A stretch of DNA of 64,000 bases from a virus, in IMG/VR virus record IMGVR_UViG_3300033146_000857, positions 1-64,000 of that record. One strand, given 5' to 3'. Below are positions 3,848 to 60,219 of this stretch, one piece after another. How positions within the stretch are numbered: position 1 is the stretch's first letter; the number at the start of each line of letters is the position of its first letter. The notes beneath the pieces are model-generated. The model was not told the DNA's origin. It did no database searches and saw nothing but the letters and a program-made list of their open reading frames with translations. Both the position numbers and the translations under genes were made by a program.

Positions 3848-4201
3848 ATGAAGAAAGAAAATGCTTATACTAAGCTAGCTGATGGGTTTACTCAGATAGG
3901 TCAAGCTTTTAATGACATAAATGAAGATACAGAGAACCCACCTTCAGTAAAGATTATAGTTATGCAGATAGCTAATAAAATGAACTTGGGTGATGCAGAG
4001 TTAACAGAGCTTATTGGTTTTTTACAATACTGTACAGCTAATGATGACCTGGATATGAAAAAGTTAACTAAAGAGTTATCTACAGGTGCTGCTGAGGAAG
4101 AGGCTAAGGAAACTTTAGAAACTAAAGAGTTATCTACAGGTGCTGCTGAGGAAGAGGCTAAGGAAACTTTAGAAACTAAACCAGACACAACTGAAGAGTA
4201 G
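3848..4201 (+). CDS. acidic protein with tandem repeat tail
   Basis: A 117-residue unknown protein following the previous gene by 9 bases, with AAGGAAAC upstream of the ATG. Residues 1-70 are predicted helical (MKKENAYTKLADGF onward). The C-terminus consists of two exact 18-residue repeats beginning TKELSTGAAEEEAKE, giving a strongly acidic disordered tail. The repeat is exact at DNA level (54 bp twice), so copy number may vary between isolates. No function is proposed. Confidence 0.7.
   Translation: MKKENAYTKLADGFTQIGQAFNDINEDTENPPSVKIIVMQIANKMNLGDAELTELIGFLQYCTANDDLDMKKLTKELSTGAAEEEAKETLETKELSTGAAEEEAKETLETKPDTTEE
4067..4174 (+). repeat. 54-bp perfect tandem duplication
   Basis: Two identical 54-bp units (4067-4120 and 4121-4174) sit in frame inside the 117-residue gene and encode 18 residues each. 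Perfect identity at every position, including third codon positions, indicates a recent slippage or unequal exchange event. Confidence 0.95.
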
Positions 4202-4205
4202 CTGT

Positions 4206-4448
4206 ATGAACATATTTGAGCTTTGTCCTAAAGGTATGGTTACTGGAGAAAATTGTAAAAAACTTATTTGCCAGTACAAAAATACGAGAGGGCAATGCTC
4301 ACTTATGGGAGCTACAGAAGATAGAGAATACTCTATCGAAGAGATTGCTGAAATTCTTCAAATATCTAGACATAGAGTCTGGAGAATTTACAACAATGTC
4401 TTGGATAAGTTAAAGACCGTCACAAATGAATTTAACTGGGGTAACTAA
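4206..4448 (+). CDS. sigma-70 region 4-like HTH protein with Cys cluster
   Basis: An 80-residue protein. Residues about 41-70 (YSIEEIAEILQISRHRVWRI then a Leu/Lys helix) match the region 4.2 helix-turn-helix of sigma-70 factors: T/S-(L/I)-EEI-A, a turn, then SR-x-RV-x-(R/Q)-I. The N-terminal half has four Cys (positions 7, 17, 22, 31) that could bind zinc. It overlaps the next gene by one base. An overlapping +2-frame reading at 4216-4413 is a shadow. Region 4 normally contacts -35 DNA, the RNA polymerase beta flap or an activator. The phage sigma factor at 18.2 kb ends before this module, so the two could cooperate. A plain transcriptional regulator is the alternative. Confidence 0.65.
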   Translation: MNIFELCPKGMVTGENCKKLICQYKNTRGQCSLMGATEDREYSIEEIAEILQISRHRVWRIYNNVLDKLKTVTNEFNWGN

Positions 4449-6311: not shown

Positions 6312-6325
6312 ACTTGTTATATAAT
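6312..6325 (+). promoter_or_regulatory. phage promoter, ACTTNNNATATAAT class
   Basis: ACTTGTTATATAAT followed by TA is identical over 16 bases to the site at 12598. It lies 26 bases before the ATG of the DUF932 gene at 6352, in a non-coding gap behind the decayed gene. No -35 box visible. Confidence 0.75.
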
Positions 6326-9246: not shown

Positions 9247-9645
9247 ATGCTAAATAAGATACTAAATGCTGGAGTTTTACTAGGCAGTAGAGCTTTTGAC
9301 TGTTCTGTGACTGAGAGTGACTATGACATAGGCATAACTGAAGAGAAACTAACTAGTCTTGAGCTTAAAGGTTTTACACTTATGACTGTAAAGTCAAATT
9401 ATCACCCTGAAGTATATGGAGATGACTTATCAAGACTATTTTGCTTAGTTACTCCAAATGGCGAGAGCATAGACCTGTTTGTTTTCAACTCTGCAGATTC
9501 TATACAAAAGCTTAGTAAAGCTAACGATATAATGAGAATGTTTATACCAGATATATATCACAAGGCTTTTAGAATTCATCAATGGCGTATAACTTTATAC
9601 TTAGTTGGGTTATCAAAAGAATACATATCTTATGAAGCAGATTAA
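9247..9645 (+). CDS. nucleotidyltransferase-fold protein
   Basis: A 132-residue protein with the Pol beta/MNT-type signature near the N-terminus: LLGSRAFDCSVTESDYDIGI, that is GSR, spacing of about ten residues, then SDYDI carrying the two metal-binding Asp. A third acidic residue follows in ESIDLFVF. The layout resembles phage-encoded RlaP-type predicted nucleotidyltransferases (T4 NrdC.11-like) but is much shorter. The target is unknown. The 3' end overlaps the next gene by 14 bases. Confidence 0.65.
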   Translation: MLNKILNAGVLLGSRAFDCSVTESDYDIGITEEKLTSLELKGFTLMTVKSNYHPEVYGDDLSRLFCLVTPNGESIDLFVFNSADSIQKLSKANDIMRMFIPDIYHKAFRIHQWRITLYLVGLSKEYISYEAD

Positions 9646-10546
9646 AGATAAAGAGACTGGCGAGACCTTTGAAGCTTACGACTTTGGGGGTCCAGATGTT
9701 TTTCAAGTTGATAGCTATTGGATCTATGGGCAAAAAAGACTAAACTATACTGGAGTTAATAAGACTAAAAACAGTATTACTCTTAATCCTTTTAATCTTA
9801 CCATTGACCTTATGGATGACAATCCTTGGGAAGTAATAGACTATGGAAATCCAGATAGCTGTACTTGGCGAATAACTGTTAAACACCTAGGCACCGGACA
9901 AGAAATTTCTGGTGTCTATCCGTTTAATCTAGAAGGGACTGTTTATCAACTTCCTTGTGGAGGGGAAGAGTGGGTCATGGCCAGTTGTGGAGGGTTAGAG
10001 ATCTCTGAAGGGGATGGAAGTCCTATTTGCTATACTCTTGTTGGGACTGGTGAGACAATAAGACTTGTTAATTTTAGGACCTATGGCAGGAAATACATAA
10101 GGCTACTGACTCCGATGTCCTGGTCGCATGCTCCGAGGGCTGACTTTCCTGTTGAGTATCAAACTATGACTTTTCAATGGTTTGAAGATACAAATGGAGG
10201 AGTTAAGAACTGGATATTTGGTGACATTATCGTTTCTGTAGAACACGTACCAACAACAGACTATTACCCATATGAGACTACAAATGATGCCGGGCTAGCC
10301 TTGATATTGGCAAAAGCCATAGAGAGCTACCCCTTGTTTATTGAACGTTACCTTTATACAAGTTGGATTTATCTTTCACACGAAGCTTACGACTATGTTG
10401 CGGTATTCGATAATCATCACACTCCTATGACTGATGAGCTCTATGAGCATACATTTATTCTAGGCAGTTCCGTGATAGTCCAAGTGCCTAGCGGTACACC
10501 TCATGGGTTAGTTATTGCGTGGGTAAGGGCAAATAATGGTGTTTAG
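9632..10546 (+). CDS. virion-like protein, intact paralogue A
   Basis: About 304 residues from the ATG at 9632 (MKQIKDKETGETFEAY). A longer reading from TTG at 9605 is possible but lies deeper in the upstream gene, and the paralogue at 11632 supports the later start. The N-terminal two thirds align with the broken gene at 11632-12569: SYWIYG, NPFNLTIDL, PWEVIDYGN, SGVYPFN, then GGEEWVMASCGG. Beta-rich, no signal peptide. The C-terminal part is not shared, so a constant scaffold with a variable end is likely, as in tail-fibre or decoration proteins. Confidence 0.6.
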   Translation: MKQIKDKETGETFEAYDFGGPDVFQVDSYWIYGQKRLNYTGVNKTKNSITLNPFNLTIDLMDDNPWEVIDYGNPDSCTWRITVKHLGTGQEISGVYPFNLEGTVYQLPCGGEEWVMASCGGLEISEGDGSPICYTLVGTGETIRLVNFRTYGRKYIRLLTPMSWSHAPRADFPVEYQTMTFQWFEDTNGGVKNWIFGDIIVSVEHVPTTDYYPYETTNDAGLALILAKAIESYPLFIERYLYTSWIYLSHEAYDYVAVFDNHHTPMTDELYEHTFILGSSVIVQVPSGTPHGLVIAWVRANNGV

Positions 10547-16760: not shown

Positions 16761-18212
16761 ATGGCTGAGTTCAAAATGGAACCTTTTGGATACCAAATGG
16801 AAGATGCAAAGTTTATCCTATCAGACAAACGTGTAGGAATATTACACGAACCTGGTGTAGGTAAGACTTTTGGGGTACTTATAGCAGCTGTATATCTCGC
16901 TGAAAAGCATAACTTACAGACTTTAGTTGTAGTGCCTCCTATTTTAATTGAAGAATGGATAGACAAAGCCAATGCCTACTTTGATCACTCCTTAACCTTG
17001 GTAGCTTACAAGGGTTCTCCTAAGGAGAGAACTAATTTCAAATTGGCAAAGGCAGACATAGTTATCTGTTCATATAATATACTGCAACGAGAAGGTTATT
17101 CAAATGCAAAAGGTAAATCTATATTTGAAAGAATGCCTAGACTTGGTATGTTAGTTGGTGATGAGACTAAATTTATAAAAAATCCAAAGTCTAAGGCTTT
17201 TAAGGCTTTTCAGTCTATAAAACATAGAACTAAGTATTTAGCCTTGATGAATGGTACACCAGTGGTTAAAAACCCAGGAGATATCTTCTGTATTATACAA
17301 CTGATTAACCCAAATAGGTATGTTACGCATAAAAACTTTATGACCCATCATGGTAAGTACATAAAGAATGATGAAGGCTTTCCACTACTAATTGGTTGGA
17401 AAAGACTGGATGATATAAAAGCCTTTTTAGACGTTAGCTGTAGGCGACTGATAAAGAAAGATGTTCTAGACTTACCTCCTAAGCAGTTGATAGTTAAGAT
17501 GTTTTCTTTAGAACCAAAGCATTACTCAGTTTTAAAGAGGTACTGGGAGACTGGCTTAATAGAACTGACTGAAAATGGAATTGATCTAGTCGGAAGACCT
17601 TTAGAAGTAATCTTTGACCAGGCTATGTCATTAGCCATGAAAGTTAGACAAGCTCTGTTTGACCCAAGTATTCTTGGTTTAGACATGGAATCAATCTATT
17701 TTGAACATTTAAGACACCAATTAGACGAACTAGGAGATGAGCAAACTATTATTTGTACTCACTTTCATAATACTTTAAGCATGGTCAAAAAAGTAATAGA
17801 AGAACGTGGAGGTACCTATAGTGAAATACATGGACAAATAAGCGCTGTAAAGAAAGAGAAGGCTAAAAAAGATTTTAAGTCTGGAAAAGTTCAATACCTA
17901 TTAGGTAATCCTAAGAGCATGGGAGTTGGGCTTGACTTTCAGCAATGTAGAAATATGATATTCTTTGAACAAGACTACGAAGTGGATTCTTTTTGGCAAG
18001 GTCAAGATAGAATACATAGACCTGGACAAGACAGAGACGTAAGATACTATGTGTTCTTAGCTAAGAAAACAATAGCTATAGACCTAATGAAGTCTATAAT
18101 GACTAATGCTGATTTTGTTAAAAAGCTCCTGGACAAACAGTCTAGCTCAGAGTTTTTTGATAATAGTATAACTGAAGATGAGGTTGCAGCATGGCAAAAG
18201 AAGATGAACTAG
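16761..18212 (+). CDS. SNF2-family helicase/translocase
   Basis: A 483-residue SF2 ATPase. Walker A is HEPGVGKTFG (Lys about 34), motif Ia is VVVPPILIEEW, the DExx box is GDETKF (about 132), motif III is LMNGTPVVKNP, and motif VI is QGQDRIHRPGQ (about 412). The compact form without accessory domains is common in phages. These proteins translocate on duplex DNA and remodel protein-DNA or branched structures. It starts 2 bases after the primase-helicase and overlaps the sigma gene by 22 bases. Confidence 0.9.
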   Translation: MAEFKMEPFGYQMEDAKFILSDKRVGILHEPGVGKTFGVLIAAVYLAEKHNLQTLVVVPPILIEEWIDKANAYFDHSLTLVAYKGSPKERTNFKLAKADIVICSYNILQREGYSNAKGKSIFERMPRLGMLVGDETKFIKNPKSKAFKAFQSIKHRTKYLALMNGTPVVKNPGDIFCIIQLINPNRYVTHKNFMTHHGKYIKNDEGFPLLIGWKRLDDIKAFLDVSCRRLIKKDVLDLPPKQLIVKMFSLEPKHYSVLKRYWETGLIELTENGIDLVGRPLEVIFDQAMSLAMKVRQALFDPSILGLDMESIYFEHLRHQLDELGDEQTIICTHFHNTLSMVKKVIEERGGTYSEIHGQISAVKKEKAKKDFKSGKVQYLLGNPKSMGVGLDFQQCRNMIFFEQDYEVDSFWQGQDRIHRPGQDRDVRYYVFLAKKTIAIDLMKSIMTNADFVKKLLDKQSSSEFFDNSITEDEVAAWQKKMN

Positions 18213-18754
18213 TAACAACCCATCTATACATAGCTAAATACCTGGCTCGTAGGTACTCTAGAAGCAGTGCACCTTTTGACGATCTATACCAAGAAGGCTG
18301 CATAGGCCTTATAAAAGCTAGTAAAAAATTCGAAGTCGAGCGTGGCTTTAAATTCTCTACTTATGCTACCTGGTGGGTAAGACAAGCTATACTAAGTTCG
18401 CTAACCACTAGTACTAGAACAATAAGACTACCTAGCCATATTGTTCAACTTAAGCTTAAAATATTTAGATTTAGTGAAGCTTACTTAAATCAACATGGTA
18501 AGGAACCTAGTCTAGAGGAAATTGGTACAGAAATAGACCTAGAAGTTCATAAGGTTGAAAAAATCTTGAACCTGCAACTAGAGGTGGACATAGACAACTT
18601 TGAAGCCTTCATGACTAAAGATGAAGATAACGAACTAGAGAAACTTGAAAAGGAGGAAGAGCATGACCATGTGGTAAATAAGTTAACAAACTTGACCCTA
18701 AAAGAGAAGATTGTTATAGGCCTACAGTATGGCCTATTAAGTAAAATTAAGTAA
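18191..18754 (+). CDS. phage sigma-70 factor lacking the region 4.2 HTH
   Basis: A 187-residue sigma factor. Region 2 is intact: FDDLYQEGCIGLIKASKKF (2.2) and GFKFSTYATWWVRQAI (2.3/2.4), which melts and reads the -10 element, followed by RTIRLPSHI. Region 3 follows (KEPSLEEIGTEI onward). The C-terminus reaches only the first helix of region 4 (LTLKEKIVIGLQYGL) and stops, missing the helix-turn-helix that binds the -35 box. No downstream frame restores it. This fits the phage promoters, which show a long -10 block but no -35. A separate region-4-like protein is encoded at 4206-4448. Confidence 0.9.
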   Translation: MAKEDELVTTHLYIAKYLARRYSRSSAPFDDLYQEGCIGLIKASKKFEVERGFKFSTYATWWVRQAILSSLTTSTRTIRLPSHIVQLKLKIFRFSEAYLNQHGKEPSLEEIGTEIDLEVHKVEKILNLQLEVDIDNFEAFMTKDEDNELEKLEKEEEHDHVVNKLTNLTLKEKIVIGLQYGLLSKIK

Positions 18755-18770: not shown

Positions 18771-18784
18771 ACTTGAGATATAAT
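18771..18784 (+). promoter_or_regulatory. phage promoter, ACTTNNNATATAAT class
   Basis: ACTTGAGATATAAT lies 42 bases before the gene at 18827 and just behind the sigma gene. It would start the transcript for the polymerase block. Confidence 0.7.
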
Positions 18785-18826: not shown

Positions 18827-19477
18827 ATGGCAAAAGCAAAGATTGAAGATATGGAATTAGAAGCACCTACAAAGAATGTTAAGACAGCAGTAGCTTCAGA
18901 TGAAGAGGTAATTGAAACAGAAGTTTCTGGAAACTCAGCAGTAGCTGTTAGAGGGGCTTCAGCAGTAGCTTCATTAAACACAGGTTTTGAGGGTATAGCC
19001 ACTATAGCTAACTTCATGCCTTATTTTATACTCGATGGTACTGAGCTTTTAAATAAGGTTTCTGAAGAGTCTCATAAGACTATTGAAGTAGTCATTACTG
19101 GTGGAAAGCCTGTATGGCAATTATGGAACATGGAACAAGCGTTGGTAGCTGAAAGTTCTGACGGTGTAACTTCTACTGATGGAGTTAACATGCAGCAGGC
19201 TTTAGCCGAGACAAAGGCTAAGTATCCTGGCCAAGAAGAGAAGATTAAAATTCAAGGTAGATACGATTTATACTTTGACTGGGACTATCCTGAGGATGGA
19301 TCAAAGCTTACTAAAATAAGTTTAAGTCCTTCTAGTAAGTATGCTTTTAGTGCTTATTCACAAGATCTAGCAAAACAAGGCCTAGGTGTAGACAAGGTAA
19401 CTACTTGTATTGGTGCAAAACGTACTGTTTCTAAGCAAGGCTATAGATATTCTTTAGCTACTTTTGAGCAGGCTTAG
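18827..19477 (+). CDS. putative ssDNA-binding/replication accessory protein
   Basis: A 216-residue protein with its own promoter and AAGGAT leader. Residues 1-45 are low-complexity acidic/Ala/Val. The core is beta-rich with YFILDG, WQLWNMEQ, a YDLYFDWDYPEDG segment and a C-terminal motif TVSKQGYRYSLATFE. Promoter-led strong expression next to DNA polymerase and exonuclease genes suits a single-stranded DNA-binding protein, but no acidic C-terminal tail of the usual kind is present and the family was not recognised with certainty. Confidence 0.45.
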   Translation: MAKAKIEDMELEAPTKNVKTAVASDEEVIETEVSGNSAVAVRGASAVASLNTGFEGIATIANFMPYFILDGTELLNKVSEESHKTIEVVITGGKPVWQLWNMEQALVAESSDGVTSTDGVNMQQALAETKAKYPGQEEKIKIQGRYDLYFDWDYPEDGSKLTKISLSPSSKYAFSAYSQDLAKQGLGVDKVTTCIGAKRTVSKQGYRYSLATFEQA

Positions 19478-48231: not shown

Positions 48232-48778
48232 TAGATGCTCCTATTTGTTGGTTAACTAAGACTGTTGGTTGAAAATATTCCTTGAACTTAGCACTAAGTT
48301 CAAAAAAGTTGTTAAACTTATGGTCTAATTTTAAAGTTCCATCCAGATAATGAACTCTGTGGGGTATTCTTAAACCGCTTGAAAGTATACTACTAGTAGT
48401 AATATCGAAAGTATTATTTTCATAAACTAGGTTATTTCCAAGTAAACTATGAGATAGCCTTCTATTTATGTCAAAGGTGTTTTCACCATAGAACTTTGCC
48501 TCATGAGGGTACTTATAAGATAGTCTATCACCAGTTTGGTCATAGACTAATTTCATACTAGGATGAATTTGAGTAACAAGATCAAAAGACTCTTCCTCAA
48601 CCAGTAGTTCTTCTAGGTAGTTCTTAAACTCATGATCGATCAGTCCAAAGTTTATCTCCCACTCTACATAGGGTACAGTAGTGTAATTGTCTACTTTTAC
48701 TCCGTCTACTAATAAAGGATTTTTACCCATATTTATCGTATATCTTAGATCTGAGTATAAAAATGTGTCTATCACCAT
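48206..48778 (-). CDS. distal tail (Dit-like) protein
   Basis: A 190-residue protein directly behind the tape measure (one-base overlap) and ahead of the hub, the place of GTA Orfg12/DUF2460 or lambda gpM. Sequence is beta-rich with FGLIDHEFKNYLEELL and a repeated (F)DI(N/T) pattern. Homology is not certain; the call rests on gene order. Confidence 0.5.
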   Translation of the reverse strand: MVIDTFLYSDLRYTINMGKNPLLVDGVKVDNYTTVPYVEWEINFGLIDHEFKNYLEELLVEEESFDLVTQIHPSMKLVYDQTGDRLSYKYPHEAKFYGENTFDINRRLSHSLLGNNLVYENNTFDITTSSILSSGLRIPHRVHYLDGTLKLDHKFNNFFELSAKFKEYFQPTVLVNQQIGASSASNFRDC

Positions 48779-51700
48779 TACAGGTACTCCTCGAAAACTT
48801 TTTTAACTCCATTTGCTATCATAGGAAGATTTCTTTCTATTGAAGCTAAAGAAGCATCTGGAGCCACTGGGATGGTAATGTTAAAATTATTACCACTGTC
48901 CTGACTCACTTGATTGTTACTACTGCTTATAGTGTTTATATTAACCTTTGGTATACTCATGGTTGATTTATTTAGACCATTAAAATAGTCCGCACCTAAA
49001 GCTCTAACAGTCTCTTTTCTTACTACGGCTTCTCCGTCCTCCAATAACGTAGGTCTTCTGTCTCCTCCGCCGTAGCCTGGTAAAACTCCTCCAGTAGACA
49101 TGCCGACACTACTACTATGTCCAGCTATGTTACTACTGGCTGCTATTGTTCTTGCAGCTCTTGCTGATGCTGCTCTTGCTCTGGCCAAATCTCTATTTAA
49201 GCTAGCCATAGCTTGACTCACGGATCTGGTCATGGTTCTGGCTGCCTCGTTAGCTCCCTTAGTAACGTCTCTCCCTACAGAGCTAAAACCTCGGTTTATT
49301 GAAAGAGTACTAGTTTTTAAACTTCTAGTTAGCCAGTCTGCTTGTTTAGTAAGTTCTGCCGCCATTGGCTTATAGAAATTTTTATTCTTAATGGCTTGAG
49401 TAGTCTTTTCTCCAGTTTTGTCTACTAGATCAACTACTGCTTTGGAAGTTTCATCACTAGTCTTAGATAGTCTTTTTACTAGGTTTTCTTTTATGTCTTT
49501 TAACTTTATGGTCCCTTTTTCAAGTCCTGCTATAAGTTGTTCAGCTGTTGTGGCCCCTAGGTCATTAGCCACTTTTTGTAGCATTTCGTTATTAAAAAGA
49601 TTTTGAAACACAGATTGCATTTTGTCATTGATATTCTCAGTATTAACGTCTACCTTTTGTAGGGTAGTTTGTATAGAGTCTTCTATTTTTTGTTGCAGAA
49701 TAACAGCATCAAAAGTAGCTACTTTCATAGAGTCTCTAAAAGACTCTTCATATTTATTGGCCATAGCTATGGCGTCAAAGGTAGCTAATGCTACTGCATC
49801 AATTTGACTTTGTTCTAAGGCCTCTTTAGACTGTTCAACGTCTATAGCTAGTGTATTAAGCATTTCAGTTAGTTGTCTGCCTAGGGCCGCACTTAGTCTA
49901 TCAGAGTTAATCTCCATGCCTTCTAGGTTAAAACTCAACGCCCTAGCTAAATCAGCTTTAGCATCTGCTGCATGAATTGCTATCTGTCTAAATGAGTCTC
50001 TAACAGAGTCTGCTATCTTAGTCATATTTTCTGAGAAAGAAATGCCTAGTTCTTCTAGTTGTCTAGCTGTATTTCTATTAATGTCTTCTATGCCCTGCTC
50101 AAACCCGCGAGCTATGTCCTCTAAACCAAAGCTTTTGCCAATGCCAAGTTCTTCAGTCTTTATGTCTTTGTTTATTTGAATATCTTGCATGGACTCAGCT
50201 AATTTTATACTTAAGTCTTCTAAGGCTCTTTGAAAGTCTAAAGACAATTTTGTCATATTTCTGTTAAATTGAGTAGCTATGTCAGAAAGATCTCTAGAGT
50301 ACTTTCTATGAGCATCCTGTAGATCATAGGCTAATTTTATTCCAGCGTCTCTTATACTAAGGTCATATTTTAACATGGCTGTTTGTAAGTCAAATAAAGC
50401 CGCGCCCATTTCTCCTTTAGCCCCTGTTACATCTCCAACTGTGGTAGTAGTTCTGTAAGCTCCATTAGCTGCTCCATAGAGCAAGTCTACTAGCTGTTCT
50501 ATAGACACTGAGTTTCCAGTTGCTGCAGATGCTGCTGTAGGTGCAGTCTCTGGGGCTGCTACCATTTCCTTCATATACTCTGGGTCTGTTAGAGCTCTAG
50601 TTGCATCAAAACTGAACCCAGCTTGAGCCTTGGTTACTCCCTGATCAACGATTACGTCTATAAGCTTGTCTGAGTTTTTATCCATATAGTCTAGATAAGT
50701 CTTATTAAAGATTTCACTGTTTACGTCTCCACCAGCCACTTTGTAAGCTTCTTTATAAGCTTCTTTTACCAGATCTTCTTTTGTTTTGTTTATATTTATC
50801 CACTGTTTAATCGCAGAAGTATTTTCACTAAGTTTAGCTTTATTAGCATCCATAGCTAGACTAATATTTGACATCTTATCAGCTAAGCCTAAGAGAGTAT
50901 CAGCATTTACAGTAAGCACAACTGGCTTTTGTAAGTTTCGGCTAAATAGCGTGTTAGTGTCGGCTATAGCTCTGTTTATAGCCGCAAGAGTTCTACCGTA
51001 GTTTCTGTTTAGGTCATTAACTTGCCTAGCATAGTTCTTTCTAGCATCATGTCTAGCTTGGTTAGTGCTAGTCTTTAAGTCTGCTACTGATCTTCTAAAG
51101 TTTATCCCAACTTGTTTAAGACTTCTAGCATAGTTTAATAGTGCACTAGCTTGTTGGTTTTGAACACTTCTATCTAAAGCTTGTATGTTTCTATTATAGT
51201 TTCTATTATTAGCTTCTACTTTTCTTTCTTTAGATATGCCTAAGTCTTCTACAGAATACTCTTTTGAACGACCAATTTTTTGCCCAGAAAAGCCTACATC
51301 TCTACGTAGGTTTCTCTCTGAAGAAACTCTATTGATGGTAACGTCTCTCCTGGATCTGTCTGTATTAAGATTAAGCTTATCTAGATTAAATCTGTACTGC
51401 CTTACTGCGTCTTCACGTTTGTTTCTAGCACTTATGTTAAGTTCTTGCTGTTGGAATGCAACCTGACGTATCTTAGCTTCCTTAATGTTAGCTGTTCTTA
51501 TGTCTAGATTTTTAATAGCTATCTGCTTAGTTAGTGTCTGTCTATTTCTGTAATCTTCGCTCATATTATTGGCTAGCCCTGACCTATCGGTCATGTTAAC
51601 TATGTCTGAGGTACTCATACTACTAACTGTCTTAAAGCTGTCTTTGGCTATGTTAGCATTTCTAAGAGTTCTATTAAGACCTTCTGCAAATCTATAGTTC

Positions 51701-54700
51701 TTAAGATCTTTAGCTTTTGTTATGTCTCTTTCTAGGCTTAAGTTATCTACAAAGTCACTAATAGCTGTAAGTTTAGCTATGTCCATTTTTCCAAGTTTAG
51801 TAGCTAGTTCTTCCATTGGCTTAAGCATTGTTACTCCACCGGCTGTCTTCACGGCCTCTGGATCTTCATTAGATAATACTTGCTTGTGTAGTTTGTCTGG
51901 GTCTGCTTGACTTAGTAATTTTCTGTACTGTTTATCTCCACCTAGTCTGTCATCTAGAACACTCGCAAAGGTATCTCCAATGCTCTTACTAAAACTTTGA
52001 TCATTTGTAAAAGTATCCGCAGCAAGCTTATTAGCAAATTCTGACAAGTCTCCTCCAAGAGACCTGTTTAGGCTTGTAAAAGTAGACCTTATCTGACTGT
52101 CCATTTGTTTCAAAGGAACTTGCATAACTTTACCAAGTTTATCAGCTAAGTTTTCTAGCTCTCCTTTGTCCGAGAGTAGTTTTGTATATCCCCCTTTGTC
52201 AGCTAAGACTGTATCGGTTCTTTCAGATATCTCTTTACGATTTGCATAGAACACAGACTCTTTACCATTTGACGCTATATCTTTCTGTACCTGACCTAGA
52301 ATCTCTAGGTCATTGGTTGCTAATACAGCTACATTTGCTAGATGCTTATAAGATTTTTGCATGTTTGTGATAACACTTTTTAATTCTTTATCACTTAGCT
52401 TATCTTTATCTTTTGTCTTATTATTAAAGCTTATAGCTTTATCAGATATTGCTTGGTCAAAATTTTGTTTATTCTCTGTGGCTGCAATTGGGTTAAGCCT
52501 AACAATCTTGGCTATTGCCTTTGGTAAAGCACCAGTTAAAAGGATACTTTCTACTGATGCTTTATTAGTTACTTTGTCTACCTCTTCTTGTTTAGCTACT
52601 GAGTATAATTTTAAACCACTTAAAAAATTATCCTTAACACTAGTTGTATTGGCTTTTGCACTTAGCTCTTTGAACTCTTGTATATTTTTTAGTAGTTGTT
52701 TTTGATTATTCCCAGCTAAGTCTAGTCCTTTTATAAAAGAGAAATTTTCATCTAAGTAGTTATTCAGGTCTGCTATCTCAGAACTGTACTGTTTCTCCAT
52801 TTCTAGGGCTTTTTTACGGGATATTAGGTTCTTTTGAGCATTACCTGCCTCTATTTCAGAATTCTCGGCTAAAACACTCTTTAGCTCTTCTCCTGATAAG
52901 TCTGTAGTATTCTTTGTCTTTTTTAAGACTAGGGCTTTATCTTTAGATATTCCTGCATAAGTTTTACCTAAGTTACTTTGAAGTTCCGAATAAGCCTCTG
53001 CAGTAGTTGCCATGTGCTCGAATACTTGTTGAGAATTAAACCCAGCATCTTTTTCTGCACTTAGAGCTACGCTTCTATCTATACTGTCGTTTACTCCAAG
53101 TCCTTCTGATATCATTCCAGCACTTAGGCTACCAAGGACTGCTGCTACGGGTATACCAAGTCCAGTTGCTCCTGCCATAGTTGCACCAGCACCAGCTAAA
53201 ACTCCACCAATAATACTTGGTGCTGCTTTAAGCATTGAGGCCCAGAAAACAGAACTTTCAACGTCCTCGTTTTCTGTTTCTTCATAGGCTTTTTTACCTA
53301 AGCTCCATGACTGAGCCGCTGTAGTTAATACAGCCAATGCTGGTAGTTTTGGTATTTTACTTGTCCACTTGCCTACGAAACCTGTGAAAGTCTTTATAGA
53401 AGGAGTTAGTTTTCCAACAGCCTCACCTAATGATTTAGTCAGCCCTGGAGCCATTTTAGCCATCTTATCTCCAGCAGTTATACCAGCCAAGCCTACACCA
53501 GTGCTTAAAGACCCCTTAGATAAGTAATTTGCCCCATAGATTCCGGCTGCAGTTAAGCCTAGCATTAAGCCACTGGTCTCACCTTCTGGAGGTCTAAAAG
53601 ATTCTAAGTAGTCTTCTTTTGACTTGGCATACATTGGCTTCTTTTTTACATCTCCTTCTAAGGTTAGTTGTTTAAATAGATCTCCTGAGCCATCTAGAGA
53701 ACTTTCTAGTTGTGAATAAAAGCCTATTGACCAGCTATTTATCATGTTCTTAAATCTGTTCTTTGTTGAGCTAAGTTGAATTTCATTTGCATCTTCTGCA
53801 GCTGATGTGCCTATTATGCTAGACCTAAAAGCATCTGCTTTGTCTATCTGGTTTGATATGGCTGCATAGGCAGTTCTTTCTCTAACTTCCATACCTCTTG
53901 TGGCGTGCTGAAAAGTGTACCCAGAGTCTTTCATAAACTTAAAGACTCCAATTACTCCCTCATCATTAAAAACCTTATTAAAGTCTTTAAGAGAGATATT
54001 AGCTGCTTTCAATGATTTAGCAAATTTTGCTGAAGGAGCTATAATGTCAGAAAATAACATTCTTTGTCCAGTACCTAGAGTAGAACCTCTCTTTATACCT
54101 GCGTCTTTCATAAGAGACGTAAGTGTTAGTACATCTTCTACAGGTATATTACCTTGAGCTGCGATGTTACCTGAATATTGTAAGGCAAGTCCTAGTGAAT
54201 TTATATCAAGTTTAGACTTGTTAACTGCTGCTGTAAATTGATTAGCCACTACTTCTGACTCAGAGAAAGACTTATCCCAAATGGTTAAAGCTGATGTAAT
54301 AGTCTGAGTAGAATCTTCTAGAGATGAACCTGTTGCTGTTGCCAGTTTAACTACACCACCAAGTGACCCACTAATACTGTTAGCTGTATAGCCTGCTTGT
54401 CCGAGAATAGTCGCTGCATCTGAGATCTCTGAGGCCGAAAACTTAGTAGTCACTGCTACTTTTTTTACAGAGTCTGTTAGTAATCCCATTTCTGTACTAG
54501 ATGACCCAGTTATGGCTTGTAGGTTCTTTAGCCTGTCTTGAAACTCTACAGCACTACCGAGGGTTCCGGTTATTAAGGCTGTGCCTGCTCCAAGTGCTGC
54601 GTATGATCCCATGAAAACTGCATTGTTCATCATCTGCTCTTTAAAGTTATCAACCCTGTTAGCTGCTTGAGCTTGTAAGTTTTTCTTACCAGAGTAAACA

Positions 54701-57700
54701 TCTCTTGTAGCATTTAGTTTATCTTTACTTTGTTGAGAGTTATTTAATTCTTGGTCTATAGATTGTATATGACCTAGGGCACCCAGCACTTGAGTAGTCT
54801 CCCCAGCCCCTTTTGTTTGATAAGTCTTAGCTTTACCTATGTCAGCAGATAGAGATGCTATTTGTTTTTTGTCTAGGCTTAATTTAGTTCCATATTTTTT
54901 AGTAAACTCTTTTTCATTAAGACCTGTAAGCTTTCTAACAGGCTCTAAATTTTCATTAAGCGCATTTATCTCTTTTGAAAGATCTTTTAGAGGTTTAAAC
55001 ACTTTAGATAATTCTTGAGTAGCTATAGACGATCCAAGTTGGTTTGATACTGCATTTTTCTCTGTCCCGCTAAGTTTGTTATATTTATCTACAGTAGTCT
55101 GCTTGACAGTCTCCCCAGCTATTCCTGAATTAAACACTTCTTCTATGACTGCTTTAGCCGGATTATTTTCTTCAAAAGCACTAACTATTAAATCTTTCTG
55201 AAGCTTAAATAATTCTTTCTGCTGCTTTGTCCCTGCAGTCATAAACATAGCACTCTGGTTTATATTTGACACACTTTGGCGCCTATCTGAGTGTGTTGAT
55301 ATATTTTTTGGGTCTATAAGTCTTTTACCCCTTAAGTGTCCTTTAATGTCCCCTTCGCCCACGATTTCTGAATAACTGCTAATTTGTTCTCTTCCAGCCT
55401 GTTCTAATGTTTCGTTTATATTCTGCTTAGCATCTGCTTTACTTTTATTCTCTGTAGTTTTACCTTTGTCTCCATTTTTCTTCTTTTGTGAGGCTATTAA
55501 GTCTTCTTTTTTCTCTGATTCAGACAGATAGTTATCCATAAGTTTTGTAACATCATTAAGCATGTCGTTAGGATCTAGGTCTAGGGGTCTAAAGGTGTAT
55601 TTTGACTTGTCTTTCTTAACTTGTTCTGTCCAGTCTTTCCAACCGGTAACCAAGCCTCCAGTTTCATATTTGCTAAACTTACCTTCCGCTGCGGCCGATT
55701 GAAATCTGTCAAAAGAAGCTTTATCAGTTATGCCTAGACTTTTTGTTGTCTTCTGGTTTAGGACCGACTCACCTTTCATTAGAAGTGCTGGTACTTCATC
55801 TTTAGTTGACTTACCAGGAATAAACCCTCCCTTAGCGAATTTTAATACCCCTCTAGACCTAAATGGAATTTTACCTTTAAGACTCTTATATTTAGCTTGT
55901 GGAAGAACTCTATGCCAGTTGTTATATATTAAATTATCTTCATCGTCTAGTAGGGTTCTTAGAAACTGTTGTTTTCTTTTAAAAGCTGTCTGTTTACTAA
56001 CATCTTTAAGTTCTTCTTTGACATTACTAAGTTTTATCGCTTCCAATCTAGTATTTTTACTGGCCTTAGTTTCAGTAACTAAACTGTTAAATTTTGCATA
56101 GGCTCTATCAAGTGTTTCTTTTGTTGCTTCTGGTTGATAGTTAGCCTTAAAGTAGTCATTGAAACTTTCTCGTTTCTTTAGTCTTTTTTCTTTTTCCAGG
56201 TTAATTTTATCAAGTTTATTTCTGTCTTCTCTTGTTTTTCTCTCTTTAAAGAGTTCATCCGTATTTGTCACTACCGTTGGATCTAGCTTTGTATTACTTG
56301 AAGCTTGAGTCTTATGTTTAGCTAAAGTCTCATCACTGAGAGTTCCTGCTTTTTTATTTACGCCCTCTCTACCGGGTCTTAGCGCACTAGTCTCTTCAGA
56401 ATTTATAAGCTCTTCCATAGAAACCATCTTACCTCTTACGGCTCTTTTCTTATACTTATCCTCTATGTTTATCTGGCCTATTCGTTCATTTAACTCCTCA
56501 GAATAACTCTCTCCTAGTACATGATTAGCTTTTGACTTAGTATGATACTCTCCTAAGCCTGTCTTAGCTAATCTTTCATTTAAGCCATGGTTAAAAGCAC
56601 TAGATATTTGCCTAATCTCATTTGTGCTGTACTCAAGATTACTATCTAAGTAAGGAGTCATACCTTTAAAAGTTTCCTTAGTATTCTGTCTTAGAGCTTT
56701 TCTATACATATTAGCTATAGTTTTCTTAGGATCTTTCCATACTCTTTTTAGCGTCTTAGCTTCTTTACCATCAGTCAGTCTCTGTGTGTAACTGTTTACT
56801 TGGTCTATTACTCTTAAAGCCGCCGCTTGTTGTATAGGATCTTTGTGTAGGTCTTTTGCCATGCTTGCAATAGCCTTTGCCATTATAGGTATCTGTACTC
56901 TATCAACCCCCATACTAGGGCCTATGGCCTGTAGCTTTTGCATCACTCTGCTATATTTTGTAACAAATCTGCCCATTTGGTCTCTGTCCGACATACCCTC
57001 AAGTCCCAGACTCTCAGTTGCTGCTTTTAGTTGTTCTTTCTTTCCTCTAGCTGAATTGGCTTGTTGCTCATATTCTATTTTTCTAAGATATGAACCTTTA
57101 TATTTTTTAGTTTTATAAGTATCCTTGTCTATGAGCCCTGGGTTAGTTGGAACTATGTAGTCTTCTGGATGTCTATTCTCAAATAGACTCTTTCCAAGTT
57201 GTAAAGAGTCTATGTCATCAAAAGGTACGTTAGCAATTCCACCATGAGCTCTTATAAGACTCTCTACTTTATTAGCTTGTATATATTCCTCTTTAGTTAG
57301 ACTTTTCAGCTCTGTATACTTTCCTGATGCTTCTTTTGATAGTTCTGTTTGAGGGCCTCTTAACCTTTTTAGTTGTTCTGGATGCTGAGTTTTTATTTGC
57401 TCGTTTTCAAGAGTATAAAAATCTGCCATTTCTGAGGCATATCCAATTTTATTTCTACTTAAAGCTTGAACTAAAGCATTACGTTTTTGCCATGCCCAGT
57501 CGTCCTTATAATTTTCTCCATTCCAATGATTAAACCTTACTCTTCCAGAACTACCCTTTAAGCCCCCAAGATTTGATGTACCTTGACCTTTTGCGTAGTC
57601 TTCAGCTATCTTAGCTTGTGCTATAAATTTACCTGAGGTTCCTTGATTACTTGTAGATACTGTATTCCAATCTTTGTTATAATCGTAATTTGCCTGTAGG

Positions 57701-60219
57701 TCATAGAGCTGACTAAATAGGCTTTTATAAAAAGTGGTTCCAAGTTTATCTTGCCCAGGTGATGAGGTCATTCCTAACGCTTTTCCTAGATTAACTAATT
57801 TTAGTATTTCTGAAGTATTTGCCTCTTTACTTCTAACTTTACTTATCAGCCTCTCTAGGGCTGTTTTTGACTGTAACTTTCCATTCTTGTCTCTAGTAGT
57901 ATCTTTCTTTAGTAGCTTTTCTAGCTCTCCCTTGCGTATACCTTTAGTTTCAGCATCTCCAGTTAGCACACTGTCTAAATAACTATCTTCTGGACCACTA
58001 TTAGTAGTTAGTTGATAACCAAGGCTATTTGTGTCACTATCTTTCATGTGAGTTATTTCTTTTTCTATCTCAAAAGAGTCTAACCCATAGCCTTCAAGTT
58101 TTTTCCTTTGCTTATCATACTTAGCATCATCGGCCATATTTTTTAAAGACTCTTTAGATCCTAGTAGTCCATATTCTGAACTACTACTAATCTCAGTAGC
58201 TTTATTTAGTTCATCTTGAAATGTAACTACTCCTGAAGGTGAAGAAAAGGAATTCTCCATAGTTTTAGCTATTTGAGGATTAGCTGTTGTAAAGCCGTCT
58301 TCTATGGACCCTCCTATAGAGGTTAATAATCTACTGTATTTTCTTTTAAATAAAGTTGGATAGGCGCTATCAGACACATGCTTCAGCCTTCCAGTAAACA
58401 TTAGATCTTTTTGTAATGTTTCAAAAGTATCTTGGTCTAGCATCCCGCCTATAGTTTTGAAAGTTTTGTCTAACTTCATGTCTTTAAACTTGGTTTTGTT
58501 ATTTTGTCCATAACCCATTATGTTATTCAGAAGTTTCTGCTCAGGACTAGTAGTTACCCTTCTTCGACTATCTTCGTACTCAGCTCTCTTAGCTCTTACT
58601 ACTTTTGATAGTATTGACTGCATGAAATCTTTTCTAGTATTTCCTTGTAGATTGGTCATTCCTTCTTGTAAGAAAGGTTCAAAACCTTTAGGTATCCCAT
58701 TCTTTAGTATAAAAGATGCTGCTTTGGCTGGATTATCCATTGTGTATAGGTTTAGTAGTTTTTTAACACTAGAACTATCTTGACCAAAAGTTTTTACCGC
58801 TTGTCTAAGTGCTCCCTTATGGTTTATGCCTAGACTATTGCTATGTTTTACATCCTTAGCTCTTTGACTCATGTTATGGATTGTTCTAAAAGTATCTTGT
58901 GTAGGTCTATTATTATCTCTTGTGTTAAATATCTCTTCTTTCATACTGTCTGTTAAACTTCTACCAGTAAGTTTTTCTAGTTTATTTATCTCAGCTAGCA
59001 TAAAAGAATTTTCTCTTATTCTAGACCCTTTTCGCCTGTCTAGTTTTATGTCAGCCATCTCTCTAGTGGGTAATGCTTTGTATACTGACACCTCATCGTC
59101 TATTATGTAGTCTTCAAAAGAAGTCTTAAAATCTTTTGAGCTAAGTCTGCTTATATGTTTAAAATCTCCAACTGTAGTAGCTTTTAACTTTGCAGTTGCC
59201 TCATCTGGTGACATACCACTAGTTAGTTCAGAGGCTATTTTACGAAGTTCATTCTGGTATCTAAGTTTCATACCAGCTTGATCAGTCTCAAATTTGCTTA
59301 GGCTGACTCCCAGGTTAGCTGTTCTATATTCTGTAGGTGAACCAATATTTTTTAATAGTGGTAAATTTCTAAGAACTGGAGACTCTCCTTCAAAAGAATT
59401 TCCTAAGTTATTTAAGGTTTTTTCTAAATTTTTATCTAAAGTTCCTCCCAGGGACACAGTTGAAAGACTAGACTCCTTTTCTCTATATCCCACCCTCTGT
59501 CTATCAGCTTGGGCTATTCTTGTTATGCTCTTAGAACCTTTTGGACTAACAAAGGATATATTGTTCATGTCTTTGTGCATGTGAAGTAATGACATAGCTA
59601 ACTTACTTGGTTTAGTGGTATCAAAGCCTGTTGTTGTTGGAATTATAAACTGCTTGGTATCTCTGTTATAAACAAAGCTATCCGCAGTTTTTGCTGCCCC
59701 TCCACTAATTGGACTACTAAGTTGTCTTACTTCTAAGCTCCCGTCAAAAGACCCTGGAGTACTAAGACCCATTTTCTCTATAGTACCTCTTATTCTATTT
59801 TTTAGCTTATGTGTAACATTTCTAGCTTGTGAGTCTGTTATGTTATAGCCTGCTATGAAGCTTTTCCAACTTTTATCAAAACTTTGAGGCTTTTTAACTT
59901 GATGGATGATAAAATCATTAGCCATTTCATCAAAGTTATTTCCTATGTCTAGATTACTAAGTAATTTCTTAGTTCTCTGAGCTGTACTGTTTACTCTCTT
60001 TGGATAGGCCGCGGCTGAAAACTCTTCTAATTTTTCTCTGCCCTCTGAAGGGCTAAATAAATGTTTAAGATCTTTATTGGTGGTTATATGTTTGTACAGA
60101 CGTGCTTTTGTTTTATGTATCTTCTTTGATACTGCGTCTAAAGCTTCAGAGCTATCTGGAGCATCTGGGCTGTTAAGTTCAAGGTTTAGTAAATCATTTA
60201 TGTCATCTATATTAGGCAT
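48778..60219 (-). CDS. giant tape measure protein
   Basis: A 3,813-residue protein setting tail length. Residues about 1895-2130 are the TP901-like tape measure core (EFQDRLKNLQAITGSS, FSASEISDAATILGQAGYT). Membrane-type segments lie near 1880 and 2328-2380 (APSIIGGVLAGAGATMAGA). Two copies of the G-G-x-(I/L)-P-G ... D-x-x-P-(A/T)-L-L ... GE motif occur near 1465 and 3715. Residues about 2920-3120 and 3220-3420 are Arg/Asn-rich amphipathic repeats with roughly 11-residue spacing. No peptidoglycan hydrolase motif seen. Scaled from lambda (about 0.15 nm per residue) the tail would be near 0.55-0.6 micrometre. Opposite-strand ORFs inside are shadows. Confidence 0.93.
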   Translation of the reverse strand: MPNIDDINDLLNLELNSPDAPDSSEALDAVSKKIHKTKARLYKHITTNKDLKHLFSPSEGREKLEEFSAAAYPKRVNSTAQRTKKLLSNLDIGNNFDEMANDFIIHQVKKPQSFDKSWKSFIAGYNITDSQARNVTHKLKNRIRGTIEKMGLSTPGSFDGSLEVRQLSSPISGGAAKTADSFVYNRDTKQFIIPTTTGFDTTKPSKLAMSLLHMHKDMNNISFVSPKGSKSITRIAQADRQRVGYREKESSLSTVSLGGTLDKNLEKTLNNLGNSFEGESPVLRNLPLLKNIGSPTEYRTANLGVSLSKFETDQAGMKLRYQNELRKIASELTSGMSPDEATAKLKATTVGDFKHISRLSSKDFKTSFEDYIIDDEVSVYKALPTREMADIKLDRRKGSRIRENSFMLAEINKLEKLTGRSLTDSMKEEIFNTRDNNRPTQDTFRTIHNMSQRAKDVKHSNSLGINHKGALRQAVKTFGQDSSSVKKLLNLYTMDNPAKAASFILKNGIPKGFEPFLQEGMTNLQGNTRKDFMQSILSKVVRAKRAEYEDSRRRVTTSPEQKLLNNIMGYGQNNKTKFKDMKLDKTFKTIGGMLDQDTFETLQKDLMFTGRLKHVSDSAYPTLFKRKYSRLLTSIGGSIEDGFTTANPQIAKTMENSFSSPSGVVTFQDELNKATEISSSSEYGLLGSKESLKNMADDAKYDKQRKKLEGYGLDSFEIEKEITHMKDSDTNSLGYQLTTNSGPEDSYLDSVLTGDAETKGIRKGELEKLLKKDTTRDKNGKLQSKTALERLISKVRSKEANTSEILKLVNLGKALGMTSSPGQDKLGTTFYKSLFSQLYDLQANYDYNKDWNTVSTSNQGTSGKFIAQAKIAEDYAKGQGTSNLGGLKGSSGRVRFNHWNGENYKDDWAWQKRNALVQALSRNKIGYASEMADFYTLENEQIKTQHPEQLKRLRGPQTELSKEASGKYTELKSLTKEEYIQANKVESLIRAHGGIANVPFDDIDSLQLGKSLFENRHPEDYIVPTNPGLIDKDTYKTKKYKGSYLRKIEYEQQANSARGKKEQLKAATESLGLEGMSDRDQMGRFVTKYSRVMQKLQAIGPSMGVDRVQIPIMAKAIASMAKDLHKDPIQQAAALRVIDQVNSYTQRLTDGKEAKTLKRVWKDPKKTIANMYRKALRQNTKETFKGMTPYLDSNLEYSTNEIRQISSAFNHGLNERLAKTGLGEYHTKSKANHVLGESYSEELNERIGQINIEDKYKKRAVRGKMVSMEELINSEETSALRPGREGVNKKAGTLSDETLAKHKTQASSNTKLDPTVVTNTDELFKERKTREDRNKLDKINLEKEKRLKKRESFNDYFKANYQPEATKETLDRAYAKFNSLVTETKASKNTRLEAIKLSNVKEELKDVSKQTAFKRKQQFLRTLLDDEDNLIYNNWHRVLPQAKYKSLKGKIPFRSRGVLKFAKGGFIPGKSTKDEVPALLMKGESVLNQKTTKSLGITDKASFDRFQSAAAEGKFSKYETGGLVTGWKDWTEQVKKDKSKYTFRPLDLDPNDMLNDVTKLMDNYLSESEKKEDLIASQKKKNGDKGKTTENKSKADAKQNINETLEQAGREQISSYSEIVGEGDIKGHLRGKRLIDPKNISTHSDRRQSVSNINQSAMFMTAGTKQQKELFKLQKDLIVSAFEENNPAKAVIEEVFNSGIAGETVKQTTVDKYNKLSGTEKNAVSNQLGSSIATQELSKVFKPLKDLSKEINALNENLEPVRKLTGLNEKEFTKKYGTKLSLDKKQIASLSADIGKAKTYQTKGAGETTQVLGALGHIQSIDQELNNSQQSKDKLNATRDVYSGKKNLQAQAANRVDNFKEQMMNNAVFMGSYAALGAGTALITGTLGSAVEFQDRLKNLQAITGSSSTEMGLLTDSVKKVAVTTKFSASEISDAATILGQAGYTANSISGSLGGVVKLATATGSSLEDSTQTITSALTIWDKSFSESEVVANQFTAAVNKSKLDINSLGLALQYSGNIAAQGNIPVEDVLTLTSLMKDAGIKRGSTLGTGQRMLFSDIIAPSAKFAKSLKAANISLKDFNKVFNDEGVIGVFKFMKDSGYTFQHATRGMEVRERTAYAAISNQIDKADAFRSSIIGTSAAEDANEIQLSSTKNRFKNMINSWSIGFYSQLESSLDGSGDLFKQLTLEGDVKKKPMYAKSKEDYLESFRPPEGETSGLMLGLTAAGIYGANYLSKGSLSTGVGLAGITAGDKMAKMAPGLTKSLGEAVGKLTPSIKTFTGFVGKWTSKIPKLPALAVLTTAAQSWSLGKKAYEETENEDVESSVFWASMLKAAPSIIGGVLAGAGATMAGATGLGIPVAAVLGSLSAGMISEGLGVNDSIDRSVALSAEKDAGFNSQQVFEHMATTAEAYSELQSNLGKTYAGISKDKALVLKKTKNTTDLSGEELKSVLAENSEIEAGNAQKNLISRKKALEMEKQYSSEIADLNNYLDENFSFIKGLDLAGNNQKQLLKNIQEFKELSAKANTTSVKDNFLSGLKLYSVAKQEEVDKVTNKASVESILLTGALPKAIAKIVRLNPIAATENKQNFDQAISDKAISFNNKTKDKDKLSDKELKSVITNMQKSYKHLANVAVLATNDLEILGQVQKDIASNGKESVFYANRKEISERTDTVLADKGGYTKLLSDKGELENLADKLGKVMQVPLKQMDSQIRSTFTSLNRSLGGDLSEFANKLAADTFTNDQSFSKSIGDTFASVLDDRLGGDKQYRKLLSQADPDKLHKQVLSNEDPEAVKTAGGVTMLKPMEELATKLGKMDIAKLTAISDFVDNLSLERDITKAKDLKNYRFAEGLNRTLRNANIAKDSFKTVSSMSTSDIVNMTDRSGLANNMSEDYRNRQTLTKQIAIKNLDIRTANIKEAKIRQVAFQQQELNISARNKREDAVRQYRFNLDKLNLNTDRSRRDVTINRVSSERNLRRDVGFSGQKIGRSKEYSVEDLGISKERKVEANNRNYNRNIQALDRSVQNQQASALLNYARSLKQVGINFRRSVADLKTSTNQARHDARKNYARQVNDLNRNYGRTLAAINRAIADTNTLFSRNLQKPVVLTVNADTLLGLADKMSNISLAMDANKAKLSENTSAIKQWININKTKEDLVKEAYKEAYKVAGGDVNSEIFNKTYLDYMDKNSDKLIDVIVDQGVTKAQAGFSFDATRALTDPEYMKEMVAAPETAPTAASAATGNSVSIEQLVDLLYGAANGAYRTTTTVGDVTGAKGEMGAALFDLQTAMLKYDLSIRDAGIKLAYDLQDAHRKYSRDLSDIATQFNRNMTKLSLDFQRALEDLSIKLAESMQDIQINKDIKTEELGIGKSFGLEDIARGFEQGIEDINRNTARQLEELGISFSENMTKIADSVRDSFRQIAIHAADAKADLARALSFNLEGMEINSDRLSAALGRQLTEMLNTLAIDVEQSKEALEQSQIDAVALATFDAIAMANKYEESFRDSMKVATFDAVILQQKIEDSIQTTLQKVDVNTENINDKMQSVFQNLFNNEMLQKVANDLGATTAEQLIAGLEKGTIKLKDIKENLVKRLSKTSDETSKAVVDLVDKTGEKTTQAIKNKNFYKPMAAELTKQADWLTRSLKTSTLSINRGFSSVGRDVTKGANEAARTMTRSVSQAMASLNRDLARARAASARAARTIAASSNIAGHSSSVGMSTGGVLPGYGGGDRRPTLLEDGEAVVRKETVRALGADYFNGLNKSTMSIPKVNINTISSSNNQVSQDSGNNFNITIPVAPDASLASIERNLPMIANGVKKVFEEYL

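Follow-up and report, generated by a model that had tools for sequence, protein, structure and literature searches.

Late transcription in phage SPO1 needs two proteins, gp34 and gp33. Expression of the late genes of this Bacillus phage depends on gp34, a sigma factor (PMC9429907), and SPO1 would parallel the locus reported here in its use of two proteins for phage late transcription. Phage T4 couples gp55, a sigma factor with region 2 function, to a separate beta-flap protein, gp33, and the pair has been called a 'split sigma' (PMC2988020). T4 gp33 has no structural relation to region 4 and recognizes no DNA sequence (PMC2988020, PMC7892883), and the T4 system needs the gp45 clamp. In Bacillus subtilis, the sigma2 and sigma4 domains are found in separate proteins, SigO and RsoA (YvrI-YvrHa) (PMC8103513); this pair is cellular, is encoded in one yvrI-yvrHa operon and is split between domains 2 and 4. 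Group 2 jumbo phages encode minimal sigmas together with gp33 orthologues, that is, reduced sigmas with HTH partners, and these sigmas are described either as one HTH domain on its own or as a fuller RpoD-like protein, descriptions that do not include a form ending at region 4.1 (PMC7824862). Such a form has been engineered: sigma70 residues 1-553 keep the 4.1 helix and lack region 4.2, and this protein is active at extended -10 promoters (PMC7948647). Region 4.2 holds on to the tip helix of the beta flap, and a holoenzyme whose sigma70 is missing this region and nothing else is defective at a -10/-35 promoter and shows early pausing (PMC7948647). A substitute for region 4.2 would thus be useful. 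Sigmas without region 4.2 were made in the laboratory to probe that region; phages appear to keep the same cut naturally. Among open-licence papers we found no 4.1/4.2 cut conserved across uncultured phages, which is weak evidence of novelty.

The DNA analysed here, which we call the window, is a 64-kb stretch of an IMG/VR virus record of 96,471 bases (G000) from a virus that infects bacteria. It encodes a sigma factor that is cut at the 4.1/4.2 border and has a conserved end, and the same record encodes a separate protein with a 4.2-like HTH. Two complementary sigma parts are therefore found on separate genes of one genome, at 18191-18754 and 4206-4448. The window sigma belongs to a different family from T4 gp55, which matches phrog_234 whereas no protein of G000 does; a split sigma of the T4 kind, with a subunit homologous to gp55, was not found in G000. 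Unlike the T4 pair, the window combines a sigma that is RpoD-like up to region 4.1 with a candidate partner that has a true 4.2-type HTH. In contrast to SigO-RsoA, domain 4 is itself divided, with the split between 4.1 and 4.2, and 14 kb separate the two genes. By analogy, the window pair would mechanistically resemble both T4 gp55/gp33 and SigO/RsoA.

Domain content and end point of the sigma factor

The truncated sigma-70-family gene runs from ATG to TAA at 18191-18754 on the plus strand and encodes 187 amino acids. A helicase gene (phrog_62; 16761-18212, plus strand) overlaps its start by 22 bases, and the same helicase-sigma gene order is found in the relative G001. The sigma identity of the protein is clear from Pfam Sigma70_r2 (PF04542; E=1.3e-20 to 2.3e-22) and from phrog_351, 'RNA polymerase sigma factor' (E=6e-44), while NCBIfam RpoD-type models match it only as far as the end of region 4.1. 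With a 613-aa RpoD encoded on an E. coli-like contig as the reference for numbering, the protein has no region 1; it begins at the start of region 2 and extends just past residue ~565 of E. coli sigma70, that is, after 4.1. Region 2, responsible for core binding, -10 recognition and melting, was placed at 18209-18418 (plus strand) by PF04542 and a residue table. It retains the -10 melting residues of an RpoD-like sigma-70, with equivalents of E. coli F427, T429, Y430, W433, W434 and Q437 kept and T440 and R441 replaced by L and S. The region 4.2 HTH that an RpoD-like sigma-70 has in the same chain is missing. The sequence-only reading had described regions 2 and 3 as well kept, which is right for region 2; region 3 (18458-18622, plus strand) is weakly conserved, its Pfam score of 23.1 bits falling below the cut-off of 25.3, and its region 3.2 'finger' is shorter and has a rewritten sequence. 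The equivalent of E458, the extended -10 contact, is Q. Region 4.1 and the natural C-terminus, '..NKLTNLTLKEKIVIGLQYGLLSKIK*', occupy 18677-18751 (plus strand), with the same end in L001. The protein thus ends before the -35-binding module, as that reading had proposed, and lacks all of region 4.2. It had also put the stop after the first helix of region 4 and suggested aligning the protein with sigma-70 families to define the truncation. This alignment could be made, and it corrects the position: the whole of 4.1 is kept and the stop lies at the 4.1/4.2 border.

Several trivial causes of the early stop were considered and rejected. Neither the other frames nor the 72 bases between the stop and the next gene hold a region 4.2 that could be reached by frameshift or read-through. 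A sequencing error does not explain a stop that falls at the same residue in the relative L001 (contig G001), whose sigma is 65-67% identical to that of the window and ends '..GLQYGILSKIK*', at nearly the same residues. From about 17 to 70 kb the window record is collinear with the 45-kb G001, and searches with the helicase, the DNA polymerase and the gene at 18827 brought up no other close relative of the window phage. Beyond this pair, 12 further aligned phage sequences from two or more other groups of uncultured phages have equivalent ends, bringing the stop on the 4.1/4.2 border to 14 aligned sequences. These sigmas end in 'KFGLxD*' or 'KFGISD*' (L006, L010, L011, L019, L102, which is itself cut at its 5' end, L103, L108 and L106) or in 'YGIK*' or 'FGIK*' (L012, L023, L110, L113 and L115), and near-copies occur among the contigs, for example L103, L105, L106 and L107. 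The sigma of L057 ends at the same border plus a short acidic tail. Region 4.2 is present in all 80 of 80 bacterial RpoD relatives from GTDB genomes and in the six of six isolate-phage sigmas inspected, none of these cultured-phage sigmas having the truncated form. With the stop on a known domain border in 14 sequences and full-length proteins in 80/80 bacteria, chance is not a sensible explanation. The alignments support a truncation that is natural, conserved and placed exactly at a functional border.

An intron with a second exon downstream was likewise rejected, as nothing 4.2-like follows the sigma gene in the relatives inspected, except for a weak ORF in L057. In that contig (L057:2305-3338), the sigma with the acidic tail is followed 26 bases on by a 90-aa HTH-like ORF (TYHEIAKIMNEAGFKMNHSTARNLFVNALIKVADEI) that has no Pfam match above the cut-off and no significant family match. 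When a tree was built from regions 2 to 4.1, the truncated sigmas formed two groups, with long branches. A single origin of all of them is not rejected (p-AU 0.363), and the tree therefore establishes neither a common origin of the truncation nor several. The description of the split as 'independently derived' goes further than this tree allows, yet G000 is without a match to the gp55 family.

The free-standing HTH protein and its distribution

The candidate partner, at 4206-4448 on the plus strand, is a protein of 80 amino acids with an N-terminal part containing four cysteines (residues 7, 17, 22 and 31) and a C-terminal region-4.2-type HTH. Pfam Sigma70_r4 (PF04545) matches it above the cut-off (E=1.8e-6 to 1.5e-7; 27.8-28.2 bits against 24.1) at 4320-4415 (plus strand), over profile positions 18-49 of 50, and so covers region 4.2 without 4.1. 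The earlier identification of a standalone region-4.2-like HTH at this locus is thereby upheld, and the match is the only one to Sigma70_r4 across the whole 96-kb record. As the sole 4.2-like protein in the record, it is the obvious partner candidate. In a phmmer search of solved structures, its top matches were T. aquaticus sigmaA region 4 (E 0.06), where the ranking and not the E-value counts as evidence. That alignment starts at 'GLIDGREHTLEEVG', just past the FGL/YGL where the truncated sigmas end. In the AlphaFold model the HTH (residues 41-70) is confident, at pLDDT 94-97, and residues 1-36 are poorly predicted; the best Foldseek matches of the model were sigma chains of RNA polymerase holoenzymes, none of them significant. 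A direct search for relatives of the protein gave none in viral contigs and insignificant matches only among annotated phages. The protein encoded by the preceding gene (3848-4201) carries two exact copies of ELSTGAAEEEAKETLETK at its end.

Searching two large contigs with Sigma70_r4, G010 (166 kb) and G011 (168 kb), also revealed in each a separate small protein in which conserved cysteines are followed by a 4.2-like HTH at the C-terminus; both contigs encode truncated sigmas as well. In both, the Cys/HTH gene adjoins a head-maturation-protease-like gene; the two contigs are related in this gene and so are not fully independent. About 3/28 control records have a region-4 match standing alone in an ORF of <200 aa, a comparison that favours a pairing of truncated sigma with free 4.2-like protein but draws on a small sample of records unequal in size and completeness. 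The Cys/HTH family comprises 61 loci (alignment A4) on contigs of up to 177 kb, its members (L116:1234-1674, L117:1468-1818 and L122-L182) joining a Cys module, CPR..C..GCPW..NHQ..NYCFF, to a 4.2-like HTH; structure prediction for the family gave a model too weak to classify. It is commoner in large T4-like contigs from which a truncated sigma is absent, and a truncated RpoD-like sigma was present in 2/23 family contigs, G010 and G011 only. Several of the other contigs encode a degenerate sigma-2-like domain within a long protein, of which G010 and G011 have a short version, so that a different sigma may be the partner of the Cys/HTH protein there. Proteins of ~500-550 aa ending in such a degenerate region-2-like domain (L185:1363-2862, minus strand; L202; L208) are common to many contigs of the family.

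The 80-aa protein of the window is not demonstrably a member of this family, as judged from alignment. It aligns over the HTH only (hhalign 36% probability), the Cys module does not precede its HTH, and the family alignment gave no match in G000 at E<=1. Co-occurrence in related phages, which the sequence-only reading had made a condition of a split factor, gives a mixed picture: G010 and G011 carry a truncated sigma and a free 4.2-like protein, whereas no partner was detected in G007 (81 kb), G012 (97 kb) or other truncated-sigma contigs, which may be fragments. The G001 contig does not cover the region that would correspond to 4206-4448 and so does not bear on co-occurrence. Two partner candidates from other phages had no match in 50,697 phage records.

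Promoter motifs and readings of the truncated sigma

A promoter-like sequence, CTTGAGATATAAT, lies at 18772-18784 (plus strand), just past the sigma gene and upstream of the gene at 18827. Its core, CTTGnnnTATAAT, occurs at five sites in the window against 0.45 expected, the others being at 6313, 12599 and 24409 on the plus strand and 21909 on the minus strand. The motif is not conserved in G001 and is therefore a lead, no more. Sites of the form TTGACA-N17-TATAAT show no excess in the window, the late-promoter motif TATAAATA, with 15 occurrences in the 96-kb record and 15.6 expected, shows no enrichment, and upstream regions common to the window record and G001 share no clear conserved element.

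Our leading explanation, which we hold tentatively, is that a sigma without region 4.2 obtains its flap and -35 half in trans, most plausibly from 4206-4448. The truncated sigma would bind the host core RNA polymerase through region 2 and melt AT-rich -10 elements with its conserved aromatic residues, leaving the 4.1 helix in the RNA exit channel. It would have no grip on the beta flap tip and would not read a -35 box, functions that the 80-aa Cys/HTH protein could supply from its separate gene. The two proteins would then act as a split sigma on one class of phage promoters, and if one half were made after the other, the phage could control the timing of expression. The lack of an excess of TTGACA-N17-TATAAT counts for this explanation. 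Against it stand the 14 kb between the genes, a Cys/HTH family mostly without truncated sigmas and a match to that family over the HTH only; the lone HTH of 4206-4448 could be an ordinary regulator. The proposal of a split factor like that of T4 accordingly gains from the natural cut at the border, the sigmaA-like HTH and the pairs in G010 and G011, and loses from the distance between the genes and from a family found mostly elsewhere.

Close behind comes the possibility, itself somewhat doubtful, that the truncated sigma alone directs core to promoters with only a -10 or extended -10 element and that 4206-4448 is an unrelated HTH regulator. Laboratory sigma70 without region 4.2 still transcribes extended -10 promoters (PMC2613000; also PMC7948647), T4 late promoters have no -35 element (PMC2988020), and it is the -10-centred CTTGnnnTATAAT and not the -10/-35 arrangement that is enriched in the window. 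The substitution at the E458 equivalent speaks against it, however, as does the TG of CTTGnnnTATAAT, which lies 3 bases from TATAAT and not 1; loss of region 4.2 causes initial pausing in vitro (PMC7948647), and the sole 4.2-like protein of the record would stay unexplained. It is unlikely, in our judgement, that a different phage or host protein clamps the beta flap in trans as T4 gp33 does. The flap is bound by gp33 even though this protein does not share the structure of sigma region 4 (PMC7892883), so a partner of that kind would be missed by a region-4 search, and most scanned proteins of the phage are without annotated relatives; but G000 lacks a gp55 match, and its DNA polymerase is polA-type (phrog_17), for which a T4-style clamp-coupled system is not expected. 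Least probable by a wide measure is a decoy that blocks the sigma site of core and so shuts off host promoters, or a decaying gene. The degraded region 3.2 would fit, and a 499-aa sigma-2-like protein of G020 shows that phage sigma-2 domains can drift, but intact -10 melting residues, 65-67% identity and the same end in a diverged relative indicate a sigma that is under selection and looks able to initiate.

Should the missing half come from another gene, the window would represent a second way in which a phage split sigma has arisen in nature. If the split-sigma explanation is true, this sigma would be built from true sigma-70 parts and not from look-alikes as in T4, and would offer a test system for the functions of domain 4 in trans, namely flap grip, -35 reading and relief of early pausing. 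We would extend it more hesitantly to a widespread and previously undescribed class of phage sigmas that are cut exactly between 4.1 and 4.2 and whose domain 4 is restored on the beta flap tip by a Cys-containing 4.2 protein from another gene, which would leave promoter choice to two independently timed products.

Some further features of these genomes deserve mention. At ~71.1-75.0 kb of G000 (L082:7000-11000), near-identical copies of AGTTTACTGGTAAGAGCTTTAAAACCAGA..TCTGAGGAGATT precede several genes; in them, the inverted repeat CTGGT/ACCAG lies immediately ahead of the ribosome-binding site and may form a regulatory hairpin common to these genes. The structural genes form a cluster at 28-70 kb. 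On the late strand of the window, a single ORF of 3813 aa (48778-60219, minus strand) corresponds to several shorter ORFs in G001. Directly behind the sigma gene of G001 lies a gene (L001:1383-2327) related to the window ORFs at 9605 (9605-10546) and 11982, and from this position the 9605-related gene seems to move within the genome.
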